A stretch of 56,028 bases of DNA from Candidatus Poribacteria bacterium (lineage in GTDB: Bacteria; Poribacteria; WGA-4E; WGA-3G): positions 1-56,028 of the forward strand of contig JAJEIP010000046.1 of the NCBI GenBank assembly GCA_022827885.1. The letters run 5' to 3'. The notes below the pieces were generated by a model, which saw nothing but the letters and a program-made list of their open reading frames with translations, had not been told where the DNA came from and did not search any database. Shown piece by piece: positions 2,787-12,353 of the stretch. A program made the translations under genes and the position numbers. Positions within the stretch are counted from its first letter, which is position 1. Each line of letters begins with the position of its first letter.

Positions 2787-5231
2787 GTGAAAATCGAATG
2801 GAACTTTCGAGTCGCTTGGATGTTTATCATGGTTTTTTCTGTTCTGTCGTTCTCAAGCATAGTGGAAGCTGAGACAGAAACAGAATCCGCCCATAGAACT
2901 GCGGCAGCGGTCCGAATTAACGGGGCATCGCCGAAGTTAGACGGGGTTTTAGATGATGACATTTGGAAAACCGCACCCCTCCACGAGGGGTTTATGCAGC
3001 AAGATCCTGATGAAGGCGAACCGTCGACAGAACGCACCACCTTCCAGATCGTCTACGATGACGAGGCGATTTACTTTGCTGTCATGTGCTACGACAAAGA
3101 ACCGGACAAGATTTTCTCTCGCCTCGTTCGACGCGACAATTACGTTACATCCGATAGACTGGATGTGGTTCTTGACCCACATTACAGTCGACAAAATGCA
3201 TTCTGGTTTACTGTCTATCCTTCCGGTTCCGTAACAGATGGTGTTATTTCTGGGCGCGGCTGGTGGGATAACACGTGGAACGGGGTCTGGGAAGTGAAAA
3301 CAAAAATACACGAAAATGGGTGGGCAGCAGAATATAAAATTCCATATCATGTGTTACGATTCGCGCCAAAGGAAAAATACACTTGGGGACTCCAAGTCGC
3401 ACGAAGTATTAGCAGAAAAAAGGAATATGCCCTGTGGCGTTTGATTAAGAAAAATGAGCCGGGTTGGGTGTCCCGATTTGGCGACTTAACGGGCATTGAG
3501 AACATCCATCCCCCTCACCATTTGGAATTAATTCCCTACACCATGGGCAGAACAACGCTCAATAGCAAAGCAGATGTGTGGGGGAATGTTGGTGGTGATG
3601 TCCAATATGGGATTACCTCTGGCATAACGCTCAATGCCACAGTCAATCCTGATTTTGGACAAGTAGAGGCGGATCCGGCGAGTTTAAATCTTTCGGCGTA
3701 TGAGGAGTATTTTGAGGAACGCCGTCCCTTTTTTATTCAGGGCGCGTCTATCTTTGGCAGTAACGACTATAATTTCTTTTACTCCCGGCGCATCGGGCGG
3801 CGACCAGGGCATTTCGACGTGCCAGATGGAGTAGAGGAACTGAGCCGACCGGAAGCCACAACGATTCTGGGTGCCGCCAAAATCGTCGGAAGAACCAATG
3901 GTAGGACCTCCTTTGGTATCATGGAGGCTGTTACATCACCAGAACACGCTCAGATTGAGCAAAAAGGTGAAACTCGCGAGTTCCTTGTTGAACCCTTGAC
4001 GAACTACTTTGTCGGTAGGGTCAAGCAAGATATTCTGAAAGGCAATTCATACATCGGGTTGATAACCACGGCCGTCAATCGGCGCGCTTCCAATTCCGCG
4101 TATGTCGGCGGACTTGATTGGGATTTGAAGTTTGCAAAGGAACAGTATCAGGTAACTGGCACTATCGCAACGAGTCAAGCCGGTAAAATAGATGAGCGCA
4201 AGTCGGGTTACCTCGCCCACATTGAAGTTGACAAAAGCGGCGGGTGGTTGAGATTTGATACCGATTTCAGAGTCCTTTCACCTGACTTAGAGATCAACGA
4301 CCTCGGCTACCGGCGACGCGCCGACATAGTAGAATGGAATTACGATTTCACGGTGCGAAAACAGAAGCCGTTTAGTATCTTCCGCCGCGTCATTTTCGGG
4401 CTCTATGGGTGGCGCACTTGGAATTACGACGGCGTGAGTATCAGTCGTTATTCCGAGATATGGACGGATGGCCGCCTAAAAAACTATTGGGATTATGATC
4501 TCTGGGTCGGACGCAATTTAGAGTCCTTTAGTGATGATGACACGATGCGCGGCGGAACTCTGATTAAGAGTCCGCCAGGCTGGTGGATTTATACACAACT
4601 TCGAACCGACAGCCGCAAAACGGTTCAACTCCAACTTAATCCTGTGTTCGCTTGGAACGACGACAAACGTTCCTACGATTACGATGTGAGGCTGCGGATA
4701 CGCATTCGTCTCGCCTCGAATATTGAGGTGAGCCTCGGACCCTCATATAGTTATGGAATGAAGGATGCACAGTGGGTGGATCTGGTGGAAGAAAACGTCA
4801 ACGGACACCTCGAAAAACATTACGTGTATGGTGAACTTGAGAACCGGACCTTGGATTTCACAACACGTGCGAACATCAGTTTTACACCAACGCTGAGCTT
4901 ACAGTTCTATGTGCAACCCTTCATTACGATTGGAGATTATGCAAACTTCAAGGAATTAGTCGAACCGAGGTCTTATCTGTTCAAGTCGTATCCGTTGGAT
5001 GAGAACCGAGACTTTCATCAACGTTCGCTGCGAGGCAACACTGTCCTTCGCTGGGAATTCCAGCCTGGCAGCACGCTATTTCTTGTCTGGACCCAATCCC
5101 GTGAAGCCTCATTAGAAGAGGTGAGAGCAGCAGATTTGGAATTCCGACCACTGCATCGGTTGGGGAGCAGTTTCACTGACGAAGGAAAAAATATCTTGCT
5201 GATTAAATGCCGGTATTGGTTTGGCGTGTAA
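2787..5231 (+). CDS. DUF5916/CBM9-like outer-membrane beta-barrel protein, copy 1
   Basis: The 814-residue product begins with a signal peptide (basic start, hydrophobic residues 9-26, cleavage probably near VEAE). A CBM9-like domain spans roughly residues 40-220 (LDGVLDDDIWKTAPLHEGF, FTVYPSGSVTDG, NGWAAEYKIPY). The rest is a long barrel-like region with alternating aromatic strands (FEERRPFFIQGA; VNPDFGQVEADPASLNLS) and a C-terminal strand ending in aromatic residues (LIKCRYWFGV), typical of DUF5916 proteins. The start is GTG at 2787. CBM9 domains bind carbohydrate in known proteins; whether this one binds a glycan or feeds it through the barrel is inference. It is a close paralogue of 6894-9344 over its whole length. 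Confidence 0.85.
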   Translation: MKIEWNFRVAWMFIMVFSVLSFSSIVEAETETESAHRTAAAVRINGASPKLDGVLDDDIWKTAPLHEGFMQQDPDEGEPSTERTTFQIVYDDEAIYFAVMCYDKEPDKIFSRLVRRDNYVTSDRLDVVLDPHYSRQNAFWFTVYPSGSVTDGVISGRGWWDNTWNGVWEVKTKIHENGWAAEYKIPYHVLRFAPKEKYTWGLQVARSISRKKEYALWRLIKKNEPGWVSRFGDLTGIENIHPPHHLELIPYTMGRTTLNSKADVWGNVGGDVQYGITSGITLNATVNPDFGQVEADPASLNLSAYEEYFEERRPFFIQGASIFGSNDYNFFYSRRIGRRPGHFDVPDGVEELSRPEATTILGAAKIVGRTNGRTSFGIMEAVTSPEHAQIEQKGETREFLVEPLTNYFVGRVKQDILKGNSYIGLITTAVNRRASNSAYVGGLDWDLKFAKEQYQVTGTIATSQAGKIDERKSGYLAHIEVDKSGGWLRFDTDFRVLSPDLEINDLGYRRRADIVEWNYDFTVRKQKPFSIFRRVIFGLYGWRTWNYDGVSISRYSEIWTDGRLKNYWDYDLWVGRNLESFSDDDTMRGGTLIKSPPGWWIYTQLRTDSRKTVQLQLNPVFAWNDDKRSYDYDVRLRIRIRLASNIEVSLGPSYSYGMKDAQWVDLVEENVNGHLEKHYVYGELENRTLDFTTRANISFTPTLSLQFYVQPFITIGDYANFKELVEPRSYLFKSYPLDENRDFHQRSLRGNTVLRWEFQPGSTLFLVWTQSREASLEEVRAADLEFRPLHRLGSSFTDEGKNILLIKCRYWFGV

Positions 5232-6893: not shown

Positions 6894-9344
6894 ATGAAAA
6901 TTGAGTTAGATTTTTGGACTGTCTGCGGATTTGTCGCGATCTTTTTCGTAGTTCAGTTCTCAGGCGATATAGCTGCTGAAACCGAAGAGTCCGCTCACAG
7001 AATTGCGACTGCTATCCGAATCAAAGGCGCACCACCCCAATTGGATGGCGTTTTAGATGACGTTGTCTGGAAAACCGCACCCCTCCACGAAGGTTTCCGT
7101 CAACGTGATCCCGATGAGGGAAAGCCGGCTTCCCAACGCACTACGTTCCAAGTCGTCTACGACGATGAAGCAATCTATTTTGGAATCATGTGCTATGACA
7201 ATGAACCCGATAAAATTGTTTCTCGTCTCGTCAGACGGGACGACGATGTTGACTCGGATAAAGTCTATATTATCCTTGATCCGCATTACAACCGACAGAT
7301 CGGTTATGGGTTCACCGTCTATCCTTCCGGTTCTATTACAGACGGTGTTGTTCGTGGTAGCAATAACTGGTGGGACAATACGTGGGACGGTGTGTGGGAA
7401 GTGAAAACAAAAATACACGAAAATGGGTGGGCGGCAGAATATAAAATCCCGTTTTATATGTTCCGCTTTTCCCCCAAAGATAAATATACGTGGGGGTTAC
7501 AGGTACAACGGGAAATCAGCCGTAGAAAAGAGAATGCCCATTGGCGTTTGATTAAAAAAGGTGAACCGGGGTGGGTATCACGTTTCGGTGATTTGGTCGG
7601 GATAAAGAACATCCATCCGTCTCGTCATTTGGAGTTGGTACCTTATGCGATGGGCAGAACAACCTTGAATAGCAAAACGGATTTATGGGGGAATGTTGGC
7701 GGTGATGTTCAATATGGAATTACCACCGGAACAACCCTCAACGCCACAATCAATCCTGACTTTGGACAAGTGGAGGCGGATCCTGCTACTTTAAATCTCT
7801 CTGCTTATGAGGAGTTTTTCGAGGAACGCAGACCCTTTTTTGTCAAAGGGGCATCCAATTTTAACTTCGGAGATTGGAATACGCAATTCTTTTACTCCCG
7901 GCGAATCGGACGGCAACCGGGGCATTTTGACATTCCGAAGGGTGGGACTGTCTTGAGTCGTCCGGAGGCGACAACGATTCTGGGTGCTGCCAAAATCGTC
8001 GGGAGAACCAACAGCAACACGTCCTTTGGTATTATGGAGGCTGTCACGGCACCTGCGTATGCACAGATTAAGGAAGGAGATAAAAGCCGCGATTTCCTCG
8101 TCGAACCGTTGACGAATTACTATGTCGGTAGGGTCAAGCAAGATATTTTGAAAGGCAACTCTTATGTCGGATTGGTGACGACAGCGGTAAACCGACAAGC
8201 TTCTAATGCTGCCTACGTAGGCGGACTTGACTGGGATCTGAAATTCGCGAAGGAACGATACCAGATAAGTGGAATGTTAGCCACAAGCCAAGCTGGAAAA
8301 CTTGACGCACGTAAATCGGGTTACCTCGCAGATATTGAATTTGAGAAACAGGGCGGATGGTGGCGACTTGATACCAGTTTTAAGGTGCGCTCCCCGGAAT
8401 TTGAAATAAATGATGTCGGTTATGTGCAGCGCGGCGATATGATGAGATGGTTCTATGACCTCATGTTCAAAAAAGAACAACCCTTCAGCATTTTCCGAGA
8501 AGTAACTTTAGGTCTTTACGGTTGGCGTGAATGGAACTACGATGGTGTTAGCATCGGTCGTTATTCCGAGATATGGACGTATGGCAAACTGAAGAACTAT
8601 TGGGAGTATGACCTGTGGGTCGGACGGAATTTGGAGTCGTTTAGGGACGAGGATGTCCGACGCGGGGGGACACTCATTAAAAATCCCGCAGGTTGGTGGA
8701 TTTTTACCCAACTTAAAACCGATAGTCGCAAAATGGTTCAGCTTGAACTGAATCCGATCTTCGCATGGGACGATGATAATAAAAATTCTGAAAAGGAAGT
8801 TAGTCTCCGTCTGAACATTCGTCCTGCGTCGAACATTGAACTGAGCATCGGACCGATGTATCGTTACCGAATTTATGATGCGCAGTGGGTCGGGTTAGTT
8901 GAAGAAGACGTCAATGGTTATATCCATAAACACTACGTCTATGGAGAATTAACGAGTCAAACACTTGACTTTACAACGCGCGCGAATATCAGTTTTACCC
9001 CAACGTTGAGTCTTCAATTCTATGTGCAGCCGTTCATTACTGTCGGAGACTATACCAACTTCAAAGAGTTGGTTGAGCCGAGGTCCTATCAGTTCAAACC
9101 GTATCCGCTGAAGCGTAATCCTAATTTCCACATGCGTTCGTTGCGGGGGAATACCGTGCTCCGTTGGGAATTTCGTCCGGGAAGTACGCTGTTCTTGGTT
9201 TGGTCTCAATCGCGGGCAATAGAGTTAGAGGATGTGGGCGCAGCCGACCTTGAGTTTCGTCCCGTGCATCGCTTGAGAAGCAGTTTCACGGATCCTGGGA
9301 AGGATATCTTCCTGATTAAATGCCGATATTGGTTTGGAATTTAA
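6894..9344 (+). CDS. DUF5916/CBM9-like outer-membrane beta-barrel protein, copy 2
   Basis: 816 residues with the same order as copy 1: signal peptide (hydrophobic residues 8-25, cleavage probably near IAAE), CBM9-like domain at about 40-222 (LDGVLDDVVWKTAPLHEGF), then the DUF5916 barrel ending in LIKCRYWFGI. ATG at 6894. Compared with copy 1 the main differences are small indels (NWNTQ in the plug-like segment near residue 325) and many scattered substitutions, so the duplication is not fresh although both copies look intact. Outer-membrane location is inferred from the family. No transporter or hydrolase for a bound glycan lies beside it. Confidence 0.85.
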   Translation: MKIELDFWTVCGFVAIFFVVQFSGDIAAETEESAHRIATAIRIKGAPPQLDGVLDDVVWKTAPLHEGFRQRDPDEGKPASQRTTFQVVYDDEAIYFGIMCYDNEPDKIVSRLVRRDDDVDSDKVYIILDPHYNRQIGYGFTVYPSGSITDGVVRGSNNWWDNTWDGVWEVKTKIHENGWAAEYKIPFYMFRFSPKDKYTWGLQVQREISRRKENAHWRLIKKGEPGWVSRFGDLVGIKNIHPSRHLELVPYAMGRTTLNSKTDLWGNVGGDVQYGITTGTTLNATINPDFGQVEADPATLNLSAYEEFFEERRPFFVKGASNFNFGDWNTQFFYSRRIGRQPGHFDIPKGGTVLSRPEATTILGAAKIVGRTNSNTSFGIMEAVTAPAYAQIKEGDKSRDFLVEPLTNYYVGRVKQDILKGNSYVGLVTTAVNRQASNAAYVGGLDWDLKFAKERYQISGMLATSQAGKLDARKSGYLADIEFEKQGGWWRLDTSFKVRSPEFEINDVGYVQRGDMMRWFYDLMFKKEQPFSIFREVTLGLYGWREWNYDGVSIGRYSEIWTYGKLKNYWEYDLWVGRNLESFRDEDVRRGGTLIKNPAGWWIFTQLKTDSRKMVQLELNPIFAWDDDNKNSEKEVSLRLNIRPASNIELSIGPMYRYRIYDAQWVGLVEEDVNGYIHKHYVYGELTSQTLDFTTRANISFTPTLSLQFYVQPFITVGDYTNFKELVEPRSYQFKPYPLKRNPNFHMRSLRGNTVLRWEFRPGSTLFLVWSQSRAIELEDVGAADLEFRPVHRLRSSFTDPGKDIFLIKCRYWFGI

Positions 9345-9651
9345 TCCTTTTCATGCGCGTAGAAAAAATAAAACTTGACAGAGAGTGTAAGAATTGTTAA
9401 TATAATGTGAGTTTGACATAAACATTTAGAAAATTCTCTCCGGGAAAGTGTTAATTTTATCAAATTTTTTTCACCTTTTTAAGATTATGCACCTTTTCCA
9501 CCCTAAAATTGTGTCTTTAATAATCAGAGGGTTCTTTTTCTAACTTCTCTTCTTTTTACGTCGGATTCACGTTGATAATATAAATGAGAAAAAAATCGGA
9601 TGTAACAATACGTTAAAGCGCGAACACTTAACCACATAGGAGGTGCGTCCC
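9345..9651. other. Intergenic region before the TonB-like gene
   Basis: An AT-rich stretch of 307 bases without a convincing gene. It holds the promoter candidate at 9375-9406, T-rich tracts around 9465-9480, and the strong AGGAGG ribosome site at 9638-9643. Confidence 0.6.
9375..9406 (+). promoter_or_regulatory. Candidate sigma70-type promoter
   Basis: A perfect TTGACA (9375-9380) and a perfect TATAAT (9401-9406) are 20 bases apart, longer than ideal. An overlapping TTAATA at 9397-9402 gives a spacer of 16. It points toward the TonB-like gene, leaving a leader of roughly 240 bases. Confidence 0.5.
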
Positions 9652-10434
9652 ATGAAATCGCGCCGTATGCCTCTCGTATGGATGGTATCGCTCGGCATAC
9701 ACGCCTGCTTTGCAGTCGTTGTAGGGTACCTCGCCATCTCATCTCAAGCACAGAAAGCACAAGATACGATTGATCTGAGTTTCTTCATCGTTACGCCACC
9801 CCAAGCAGCGAAAAGGGATGTTATTCAGAAGCCAGCTGTTGTAACAACCCCTGTTCCGGATTTGAGAGTCGTTCCACAAACTGAGACGACGCAGCGTCGG
9901 GCAACAGTCGCCCGCGCGACCAGATCATCCTCAACTGCAGCACCTGCGGCATCGCTCATGGCGAGCGCACCCGCTGCCCCAAGAGGACAGCAAGTCAAAG
10001 TTCCGAGCGCATCTCCCGTGATCCAGCATACGACACAACCGCTATCAACCGCTGCACAACTGCCGACAGCATCAGATGGATTACCGACCGCAGGCTTGCC
10101 CAGCGGCGGGGCAGTTACAGATGGTATAGGCGTAGGTATTGGTGACGGTTTGGGTAGCGGGACCGGACGTGGGACTTTCGGTTCAGGATCCGGTTTCGGA
10201 CAAGGACGGACACAAAACCGTGGTGGTCTGAACTCGCTCGTAGACGGGGCAGGTGCTGCAAATATTAACGCATCCCTGTCGAGTGTCGAAAAAAATATGG
10301 TTCTCGGTAATGGTGTCCCACAACTTCCCAAGGGAAGCCCAGGTGCCATCATTCAAGGTCGGGGTACAGAGATTATTGGAAGTCTCAATCTCGTCCGTCT
10401 CGATGATCCATTGCATCCGAACCTCGATATATGA
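9652..10434 (+). CDS. TonB-like N-terminal part of a split DUF4159 protein
   Basis: The product starts MKSRRMPLVWMVSLGIHACF and gives a short basic tail, one transmembrane helix (about residues 7-28) and then a Pro/Ala/Thr-rich, later Gly-rich periplasmic linker. This is the architecture of TonB-family energy transducers, without their usual C-terminal domain. ATG 9652 is preferred to GTG 9643 because AGGAGG (9638-9643) sits eight bases ahead and overlaps that GTG. The frame ends in TGA at 10432-10434, yet the same frame continues without a stop to 11229 and encodes DUF4159. The gene is therefore probably one protein interrupted by a nonsense codon, or a read-through/recoded one. ExbB/ExbD genes are 37 kb away. 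Confidence 0.75.
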   Translation: MKSRRMPLVWMVSLGIHACFAVVVGYLAISSQAQKAQDTIDLSFFIVTPPQAAKRDVIQKPAVVTTPVPDLRVVPQTETTQRRATVARATRSSSTAAPAASLMASAPAAPRGQQVKVPSASPVIQHTTQPLSTAAQLPTASDGLPTAGLPSGGAVTDGIGVGIGDGLGSGTGRGTFGSGSGFGQGRTQNRGGLNSLVDGAGAANINASLSSVEKNMVLGNGVPQLPKGSPGAIIQGRGTEIIGSLNLVRLDDPLHPNLDI

Positions 10435-10476
10435 GGCAACGGCATCGGACATCTCCGATTCGGGGCAGGTCTGCCC
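10432..10476 (+). promoter_or_regulatory. In-frame UGA followed by a hairpin resembling a bacterial SECIS
   Basis: After the UGA at 10432-10434 two stems follow. ATCGGA (10444-10449) pairs with TCCGAT (10454-10459). GGGC (10463-10466) pairs with GCCC (10473-10476) around a six-base loop AGGTCT (10467-10472). The core GCAGGTCTGC is, from memory, the same as the apical part of the Escherichia coli fdhF selenocysteine insertion element. The loop lies 33 bases after UGA, near the upper limit accepted for bacterial elements. The stem is only four pairs plus a possible G-T, so chance similarity is quite possible. No SelB, SelA, SelD or tRNA-Sec gene is in the window. Confidence 0.35.
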
Positions 10477-10521
10477 TATTTAGTCCAGTCGCTGAATGCA
10501 GAAACAGGTATCGAAACCCAA

Positions 10522-11229
10522 ATGGTGGATGCCGTTCAAATTACGGATGCAGCCTTTTTTGAGTCACCCATTATCTTTATGGAACCGGTTCCCAAATCCT
10601 CAGTGCAACTCCATAACGGACTGTTAGGGGGTAGCAATATCTGGAATGCGAAAGGGGATCGCCCTTCCTTCGGTTATACTGATCGGGAGGCGCAGCGAAT
10701 TCGCGAATATGTCATCAACCGCGGTGGGTTCATCTATATGCCGACGCACGGAAACACGGAAGCGGCAATGCAGCCCGCATTGCGAGTCTTGCGCCAGATC
10801 CTTCCTGAATACCACCTCACCACTATCCCGCAAGATCACGAGATTTACGACAGTTTCTATGAGTTGAGCGGACCCCTGCGTTTTCCCGTCCGGAAAATTG
10901 GGGCTACCATTCTCCATCACGGTCCGTATCGTCAGTTACAAGGTGTTTTCATCGATGATCGGTTGGCTGTTCTCGTTGATACAGAAGCGATGATACACGT
11001 GATGGATGGTGCTGTCCAGAAACCTTTCTTCGGTCACTATCAGGATCGGAATAGAATCTTAGATGAATTCGCGCCCGCCGCTGCACGGCAACTTATTAAC
11101 GTCGTCATCTATGCGGTGACACACGGAAACATCTCGGATTACAGCAACTATATTCCTGCGAGTGCCTTCGCCGATGGTGAGATAGATAGTACGCCGAAAA
11201 AGCTGCCGAATGCTGCCAGCCGGTTATAG
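10522..11229 (+). CDS. DUF4159-domain protein (C-terminal part of the split gene)
   Basis: 235 residues from the first ATG after the UGA. The domain carries typical DUF4159 features: ITDAAFFESPIIFMEP, the EAQRIREYVINRGGFIYM block and a late FGHYQDRNR. The domain resembles a ThuA/GATase-like fold, with no known activity in this family. No ribosome site is seen ahead of ATG 10522. The open frame before it (10435-10521) encodes GNGIGHLRFGAGLPYLVQSL and more, which looks like real DUF4159 sequence, so the natural protein very probably begins at 9652. Its stop is followed by the terminator at 11272. Translation of this part alone would need an unusual start. Confidence 0.75.
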   Translation: MVDAVQITDAAFFESPIIFMEPVPKSSVQLHNGLLGGSNIWNAKGDRPSFGYTDREAQRIREYVINRGGFIYMPTHGNTEAAMQPALRVLRQILPEYHLTTIPQDHEIYDSFYELSGPLRFPVRKIGATILHHGPYRQLQGVFIDDRLAVLVDTEAMIHVMDGAVQKPFFGHYQDRNRILDEFAPAAARQLINVVIYAVTHGNISDYSNYIPASAFADGEIDSTPKKLPNAASRL

Positions 11230-11271: not shown

Positions 11272-11306
11272 AAGCCGCGTCAATCTCTTGACGCGGCTTG
11301 TTTTTT
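11272..11306 (+). terminator. Strong rho-independent terminator
   Basis: A perfect 12-base stem (11272-11283 with 11288-11299) around a TCTC loop, followed by G and six T (11301-11306). It ends the DUF4159 unit. Confidence 0.93.
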
Positions 11307-11388: not shown

Positions 11389-11417
11389 TTGACAAATCGG
11401 GGTTAGGTATGTATAAT
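11389..11417 (+). promoter_or_regulatory. Consensus sigma70-type promoter for the rhodanese gene
   Basis: TTGACA (11389-11394) and TATAAT (11412-11417) with a 17-base spacer, both perfect matches. The expected start point is about 60 bases before the ATG at 11484. Confidence 0.85.
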
Positions 11418-11483: not shown

Positions 11484-12353
11484 ATGAGGAGACTTTATAC
11501 AAAAATGGCTGATTACGCAAATCCTGATGTTTTAGTAACTACAGAATGGGTCGCTGCACACGGTGGTGATGCTGGCATCCGACTCCTTGAGGTTGATGTT
11601 GATACTTCAGCTTATGCTGAGGGACATATCGCTGGGGCAGTAGGACTCAATTGGGAAACACAATTGTGCGATCAAGTTCGACGCGATATCCTCACCAAAG
11701 AACAATTCGAGGCACTTTGCAATGACAGCGGCATCGCCAACGATACGACTGTTATTTTTTATGGAGATAACAATAACTGGTTCGCAACCTATGCCTTGTG
11801 GCAATTCCGTTATTACGGACACGACGAAAGTCTGTTGAAAGTGATGAATGGGGGTCGTCAAAAATGGATTGATGAAGGCAGAGAGCTTGTCACTGACGTT
11901 CCAGATCATTCCAGCACAGGGTATCAGGCGAAATTCCCCGACGACAATGTCCGTGCTACAGCGGGGACGGTTCGCGATACACTCGGACAAGGTATTGTTA
12001 ACCTCGTTGATGTCCGTTCGCCTGCTGAATTCACTGGCGAAGTTATCGCGCCTCCGGGTATGAGCGAGACAGCGCAACGCGGTGGACACATCCCCGGCGC
12101 AGCGAATATCCCATGGGCGACAGCAGTGGCTGAAGACGGCACCTTTAAGTCTCATGACGAACTCCAAGCCATCTACGGTGGTGCAGGTGTTGATGAGGGT
12201 CAAGAAACAATTGCTTATTGTCGTATCGGTGAACGCTCATCGCATACCTGGTTTGTGCTGAAGTATCTACTCGGTTATGAGAAGGTCCGCAATTACGATG
12301 GGAGTTGGACAGAGTGGGGCAATCTGGTCGGAGCACCTATTGCACGCGATTAA
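11484..12353 (+). CDS. Thiosulfate/3-mercaptopyruvate sulfurtransferase (two rhodanese domains)
   Basis: The product of up to 289 residues has an N-terminal inactive rhodanese domain (AGAVGLNWETQL, VMNGGRQKWIDEG) and a C-terminal catalytic one. Its active-site loop CRIGERSSHTW has nucleophile Cys246 counted from 11484. The CRxGERS loop and the length match CysA/SseA-type enzymes, which move sulfane sulfur to cyanide or other thiol acceptors. No signal peptide, so cytoplasmic. ATG 11505 (MADYANPDVLV) is an alternative start that fits family N-termini better; GAGGAG lies 13 bases ahead of it. Preceded by its own strong promoter. Confidence 0.92.
   Translation: MRRLYTKMADYANPDVLVTTEWVAAHGGDAGIRLLEVDVDTSAYAEGHIAGAVGLNWETQLCDQVRRDILTKEQFEALCNDSGIANDTTVIFYGDNNNWFATYALWQFRYYGHDESLLKVMNGGRQKWIDEGRELVTDVPDHSSTGYQAKFPDDNVRATAGTVRDTLGQGIVNLVDVRSPAEFTGEVIAPPGMSETAQRGGHIPGAANIPWATAVAEDGTFKSHDELQAIYGGAGVDEGQETIAYCRIGERSSHTWFVLKYLLGYEKVRNYDGSWTEWGNLVGAPIARD

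Follow-up and report, generated by a model that had tools for sequence, protein, structure and literature searches.

Does the single in-frame UGA codon in a gene of an uncultured Candidatus Poribacteria bacterium terminate translation, mark a damaged gene, or encode selenocysteine (Sec)? The gene is located at positions 9652-11229 on the forward strand of the window, i.e., the complete stretch of 56,028 nucleotides that was analysed, which is one contig of a 148-contig assembly of 5.13 Mb that is 97% complete. A sequence-only reading of the window had put forward Sec, and a follow-up by comparative genomics, RNA folding, and structural modelling is reported here. On basis of the conserved TGA, the occurrence of Cys at the same position, the Sec machinery, a bacterial Sec insertion element (bSECIS), low synonymous variation, and a coding pattern past the UGA, the codon very probably encodes Sec and the gene is very probably intact. 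The original proposal is thereby supported, with Cys homologues, Sec genes, bSECIS rules, and 39 genomes in agreement.

The gene and its reading frame

The frame had been claimed to be broken only by the TGA at 10432, which was borne out by reading and translation: between 9652 and 11226 the sole internal stop is the TGA at 10432-10434, and the terminal stop is the TAG at 11227-11229. With the TGA read through, the gene encodes a candidate selenoprotein of 525 residues, with Sec at position 261, that matches DUF4159 in Pfam (1.5e-18) and has orthologues with the same TGA. The encoded parts are, in order, a membrane anchor, a disordered linker, and the DUF4159 domain. The anchor is a likely one, consisting of an N-terminal hydrophobic stretch at residues 5-30 (9664-9741, forward strand) that forms a helix in the full-protein model and would hold the product in the inner membrane. 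The earlier label 'TonB-like' describes this layout only and did not survive as a domain assignment, as Pfam found no TonB domain in residues 1-260, where just the membrane helix and the linker are present.

Upstream of the gene, a consensus scan located a promoter-like site on the forward strand (TTGACA-17-TAATAT, 9375-9403) that matches 10 of 12 bases plus an extended TG, a likeness that is no proof of function, and a ribosome-binding-site-like AGGAGG (9638-9643, forward strand) is directly visible 8 bases 5' of the ATG. The gene is followed by a terminator-like hairpin (AAGCCGCGTCAATCTCTTGACGCGGCTT, then GTTTTTT; 11272-11299, forward strand); the scan lists this hairpin on the reverse strand, its stem being symmetric, and the T run was read directly on the forward strand. 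The downstream rhodanese gene has a separate promoter-like site, a perfect one, at 11389-11417. In view of its own promoter-like site, the terminator-like hairpin with T run, and the separate promoter-like site of the rhodanese gene, the DUF4159 gene looks monocistronic.

Conservation of the UGA codon

Homologues were collected in two ways, by searching 146 whole genomes and by running a profile against 85 Poribacteria genomes. The relatives found among genome contigs were all Candidatus Poribacteria, and across both searches the subfamily is restricted to two families of one order. The profile search recovered the same in-frame TGA in 41 genes from 39 of the 85 Poribacteria genomes, each gene having exactly one in-frame TGA, and these 39 genomes are separate, species-level assemblies. 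In an alignment of all full-length copies the TGA occupies one shared column, with TGA in 41 and a Cys codon in 3 of the 44 subfamily members, at protein identities to the window protein that range from 96% down to 45%. The stop-free homologues carry Cys at the exact TGA column (L048 501-2117, TGC; L055 3916-2333, TGT; L056 504-2087, TGT). The residue in homologues, which had been proposed as a check, is hence Cys in the subfamily members that lack the stop, and this favours Sec. Trp, which had been named as a residue that would speak against Sec, was found only in a distant paralogous branch, which shares about 30% identity and aligns differently around this position. Such paralogues, some of which are encoded in the window's genome, have DWW at the Sec spot followed by a seven-column gap, because of which their residue-by-residue homology at this spot is uncertain.

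Two copies are incomplete at the Sec position: in genome G034, which had seemed to lack the Sec codon, a run of N covers it, and the copy in G069 is a contig-edge fragment that starts beyond the Sec position. In one Sec copy (L049 1928-363, genome G071) HPRTAS replaces the HPNxDI that precedes the UGA, while the UGA and the SECIS loop are kept.

Codons 277-290, located 3' of the SECIS and 5' of the next possible ATG, are translated only if the UGA is read. Variation at their first, second, and third codon positions was 0.26, 0.09, and 0.34, respectively, which is a coding-like pattern and makes readthrough visible at the protein level, as judged from sequence variation.

Selenocysteine machinery

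The Sec genes, whose absence had been regarded as incompatible with Sec, are all present in the window's genome: selA (601 bits), selB (350 bits), selD (360 bits), and a tRNA-Sec (75 bits) with anticodon UCA at approximately 60 bases after selB. The selD gene (L075, G000:C144:60983-61906) has its own in-frame TGA, within VKCAG*ASKL, which presumably aligns with Cys17 of E. coli SelD, the catalytic position. This gene is an internal positive control for the use of Sec in this genome. SelD resembles the DUF4159 protein in its in-frame TGA and differs from it in representing a well-known selenoprotein family, and no hairpin after the selD TGA passed the strict ungapped bSECIS test, illustrating that this test has false negatives.

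Seven genomes of the same genus (G002, G003, G011, G019, G020, G025, and G036) lack the DUF4159 Sec gene and yet contain a tRNA-Sec above the cut-off. The Sec DUF4159 gene is therefore dispensable and not essential to Sec use, and the distribution suggests that part of the genus has lost it.

The bSECIS hairpin and an auxiliary hairpin

Published rules for bSECIS elements demand a loop of 3-9 nt with a G in its first two positions, a stem of 4-16 bp, a distance from UGA to loop of 16-37 nt, and a minimum free energy of at most -7.5 kcal/mol (PMC13188914). All of these are satisfied by the hairpin GGGGC-AGGTCT-GCCCT at 10462-10477 (forward strand; loop 10467-10472), which starts 27 nt after the TGA, has its loop at 32 nt after the TGA, and is predicted at -8.6 kcal/mol. 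Of all 2,104 TGAs that the window contains, 58 (2.8%) pass the same rules, because of which the hairpin by itself is weak, suggestive evidence, and it is the comparative data that carry the case.

The loop AGGTCT is unchanged in all 41 Sec genes, representing 24 distinct Sec sequences, in which the only stem variation is a change from G-C to G-U in one pair, with retention of pairing. Among the three Cys genes, two have the loop altered to AGGTTT, a synonymous change, and the remaining one has an intact element. Normalised synonymous codon diversity was 0.19 in the SECIS stretch vs 0.66 elsewhere (Mann-Whitney p 2e-4), and the sliding window with the lowest synonymous diversity of the whole gene coincides with the SECIS stretch. 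Furthermore, the likeness to the fdhF loop, which the sequence-only reading had pointed out, was confirmed in E. coli MG1655, where fdhF carries the same ten bases, GCAGGTCTGC, comprising stem tip and loop, 3' of its Sec-UGA. The two elements differ in the distance from UGA to loop (17 nt in fdhF, 32 nt in the Poribacteria gene) and in the extra hairpin that the latter has in between, and the proteins are unrelated. A genome scan for the exact ten-base motif yielded 7 sites; none of the other 6 follows a UGA within a long open frame.

The extra, auxiliary hairpin was predicted by folding at 10444-10459 (ATCGGA-CATC-TCCGAT, forward strand), between the UGA and the SECIS loop. Five of its six pairs are kept in 24 of 24 distinct Sec sequences and the sixth is broken in 2, a conservation with which coding constraints overlap. 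For some of the family f4 relatives, the upper hairpin on its own reaches -5.9 kcal/mol, which is above the -7.5 limit and counts against the Sec reading, and an Rfam search around the UGA returned no SECIS family, merely a chance mir-290 match. The SECIS may be of a two-hairpin type, in which the auxiliary hairpin compensates for the long spacer.

Domain fold and position of the Sec residue

DUF4159 (PF13709) is the only Pfam match of the protein, at 67.5 to 70.8 bits relative to a gathering score of 25.9, and lies entirely 3' of the TGA. It is limited to profile positions 62-201 and leaves the N-terminal GGGGDWY/DWW part unmatched. The domain was modelled at 10333-11175 (forward strand) with a fold that probably resembles that of ThuA and class I glutamine amidotransferases; the model of the domain alone, built from 68 sequences, reached a pLDDT of 85, against a poor 41 when the whole protein was modelled from 19 close sequences. 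VIA-align matched the domain model to the solved DUF4159 structure 4i66 (Hoch_4089; Z 18.6 over 189 residues) and to the ThuA-like 1t0b (Z 8.3). The other matches had Z 5-8, with IFT52 and glutamine amidotransferases at 5-7. Scores of this size, that of 1t0b included, border on those of common arrangements, which may be all that the lower ones reflect. Hoch_4089 thus shares the fold, and by profile also the domain (hmmsearch 6e-32 to 4i66). Since the profile match is partial and the fold nevertheless follows 4i66 from the first core strand onward, the window protein can be regarded, from alignment and model, as a member of a divergent DUF4159 subfamily. In typical DUF4159 proteins the N-terminal loop reads GGGGDWY or DWW, with Trp or Tyr at the corresponding position, whereas the Sec subfamily has HPNxDIUGSGIG.

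In the model, the first core strand (residues 240-250) precedes the UGA and the first helix (274-284) follows it, with Sec261 at the tip of the loop in between. In such alpha/beta folds the loop after the first strand borders the usual active-site edge. Confidence in the Sec loop is among the lowest in the core of the model (pLDDT below 50 at 261-264), because of which a location of Sec261 in the active site can only be inferred. The turn after the central strand that holds the nucleophile in amidotransferases reads THGNTE, with invariant H366, G367, and N368, and His255, His366, and His396 are conserved. The Cys-His-Glu triad of class I glutamine amidotransferases, with its nucleophile-elbow Cys, is absent, and Sec is found in a different loop. 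Cys19, located in the membrane helix, is the sole Cys of the protein, and the subfamily has no other conserved Cys; Sec is consequently a lone residue, outside any CxxU or UxxC motif and with no partner Cys outside the anchor. A CTP synthase C-terminal region-related selenoprotein (NF004836) is likewise annotated as a class I glutamine amidotransferase (PMC13188914), but its GxUxG motif, which is absent here, looks like the nucleophile position.

Alternative readings and the possible role of Sec

If the UGA were a true stop, the locus would consist of two genes, one for a membrane protein of 260 residues and another for a DUF4159 protein with a start of its own. The downstream frame does open with an ATG, at 10522, and 5 of the 35 main open reading frames of the window end normally in UGA, but a ribosome-binding site is absent 5' of 10522, the residues between the UGA and this ATG are under protein-level constraint, the three Cys homologues are one continuous protein, and the modelled domain spans the UGA; two genes are accordingly very unlikely. 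The alternative in the sequence-only reading was a mutation from TGG or CGA to TGA, or an error; such a mutation, a pseudogene, or an assembly error usually shows up as a lone stop in a frame that is open elsewhere. This is refuted by the recurrence of the TGA in 41 genes from 39 separately assembled genomes, at identities down to 45% and with coding intact on both sides, leaving such an explanation a negligible probability. A third reading, in which a near-cognate tRNA-Trp or a reassigned codon inserts a residue other than Sec, could draw on the Trp near the Sec place in paralogous DUF4159 proteins. Against it, Cys is the only substitute in close homologues, with no instance of Trp, Arg, or Gly, UGA terminates other genes of the window, and a SECIS with an fdhF-identical loop is accompanied by the complete Sec machinery, which renders insertion of another residue highly improbable.

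Decoding of the UGA at 10432-10434 as Sec would involve SelB and Sec-tRNA(UCA), directed by the bSECIS at 10462-10477. The product would be anchored with its DUF4159 domain probably in the periplasm and with Sec261 in a flexible loop that follows the first strand of the core in the ThuA/GATase1-like domain. There, Sec may act as a single reactive residue, either a nucleophile or a redox centre, together with His366/Asn368 and His396; an external thiol would resolve it, as there is no partner Cys in the chain outside the anchor. Such a nucleophilic or redox role has about even chances. Alternatively, the protein could be a selenoprotein in which Sec binds a metal or a cofactor, or serves in structure or sensing. 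Its solitary occurrence without CxxU or UxxC and the conserved His255, His366, and His396, which could share one site, are in line with this, as is the estimate that metals take part in approximately 70% of the binding interactions predicted for selenoprotein families (PMC13188914). However, no metal-binding motif was found and the model does not place the Sec loop, and a non-catalytic role is considered a substantial possibility with a somewhat lower probability. On balance, a lone reactive Sec is favoured, though not firmly, over its main rival, a Sec that acts as a metal ligand.

Evolution and novelty of the family

A tree built with IQ-TREE groups the Sec and Cys sequences in one clade, apart from the Trp sequences, and the Cys sequences need two changes. 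The Cys copy L048 501 branches from within the Sec copies, and its genome also has a Sec copy. The Cys copies L055 and L056 are at the base of the clade when it is rooted by the Trp paralogues, and the direction by parsimony is ambiguous; their remnant SECIS favours a change from Sec to Cys. At least one Sec-to-Cys reversion is what the tree most simply implies. Reviews describe such reversions as rare among bacteria and as confined mostly to FdhA and SelD (PMC13188914; PMC1794560), and remnant SECIS-like structures are known behind Cys codons (PMC1794560). Tentatively, and with rather low confidence, the family may be pictured as having begun with Sec, and not with Cys, in a branch of DUF4159, the wider family having Trp or Tyr. 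Sec would work on its own in a ThuA-like pocket, as a reactive group or a ligand and without the usual thiol-redox pattern, and at least one later reversion to Cys would have left remnant SECIS elements; the SECIS could be of the two-hairpin type.

The sequence-only reading had stated that Sec in a DUF4159 protein would be new. The 2026 inventory of prokaryotic selenoproteins does not contain PF13709 (0 occurrences; PMC13188914), no NCBIfam model matches the protein, and a literature search returned no paper on DUF4159 and none naming both selenoproteins and Poribacteria, although an earlier report or an NCBI annotation is possible. As far as tested, the statement holds and the family is a new selenoprotein family, selenoproteins as such being well known. 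It adds a membrane-anchored, probably periplasmic protein with an unusual lone Sec from a phylum of sponge symbionts that is uncultured. A 2017 study observed SelA and SelB together in the majority of sponge-symbiont bins and found them lacking in most of the close relatives (PMC5649159), and the DUF4159 selenoprotein provides a concrete target for this co-occurrence. The gene is likely annotated as two fragments or as a pseudogene in dozens of public genomes. In addition, the presence of Sec and Cys copies with remnant SECIS in neighbouring genomes allows Sec-to-Cys reversion to be studied.

Gene neighbourhood

In family f1 the gene is surrounded by genes for a rhodanese, QueD, and DUF5916. 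In family f4 it is often followed by a gene for a beta-propeller lipoprotein with carboxypeptidase-regulatory-like and PD40 domains, as exemplified by the Sec or Cys DUF4159 genes at L101 9815-11488 and 14153-15820, L107 9767-11410, and L109 9815-11494, each with the lipoprotein next. In L101 the DUF4159-lipoprotein pair is tandemly duplicated, one DUF4159 gene having Cys and the other Sec. In the window's genome the propeller lipoprotein of f4 has no more than repeat-level matches, and neither the f1 nor the f4 neighbours provided a functional clue for the DUF4159 gene. The conserved f1 neighbour in the window, at 11484-12353, encodes a rhodanese that resembles 3-mercaptopyruvate sulfurtransferase, and its best NCBIfam matches include the selenite/tellurite-operon protein ExtH, below the cut-off. 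Upstream in the window, two related DUF5916/CBM9-like genes are located close together (2787-5231 and 6894-9344); relatives contain more copies of these genes, at varying distance.
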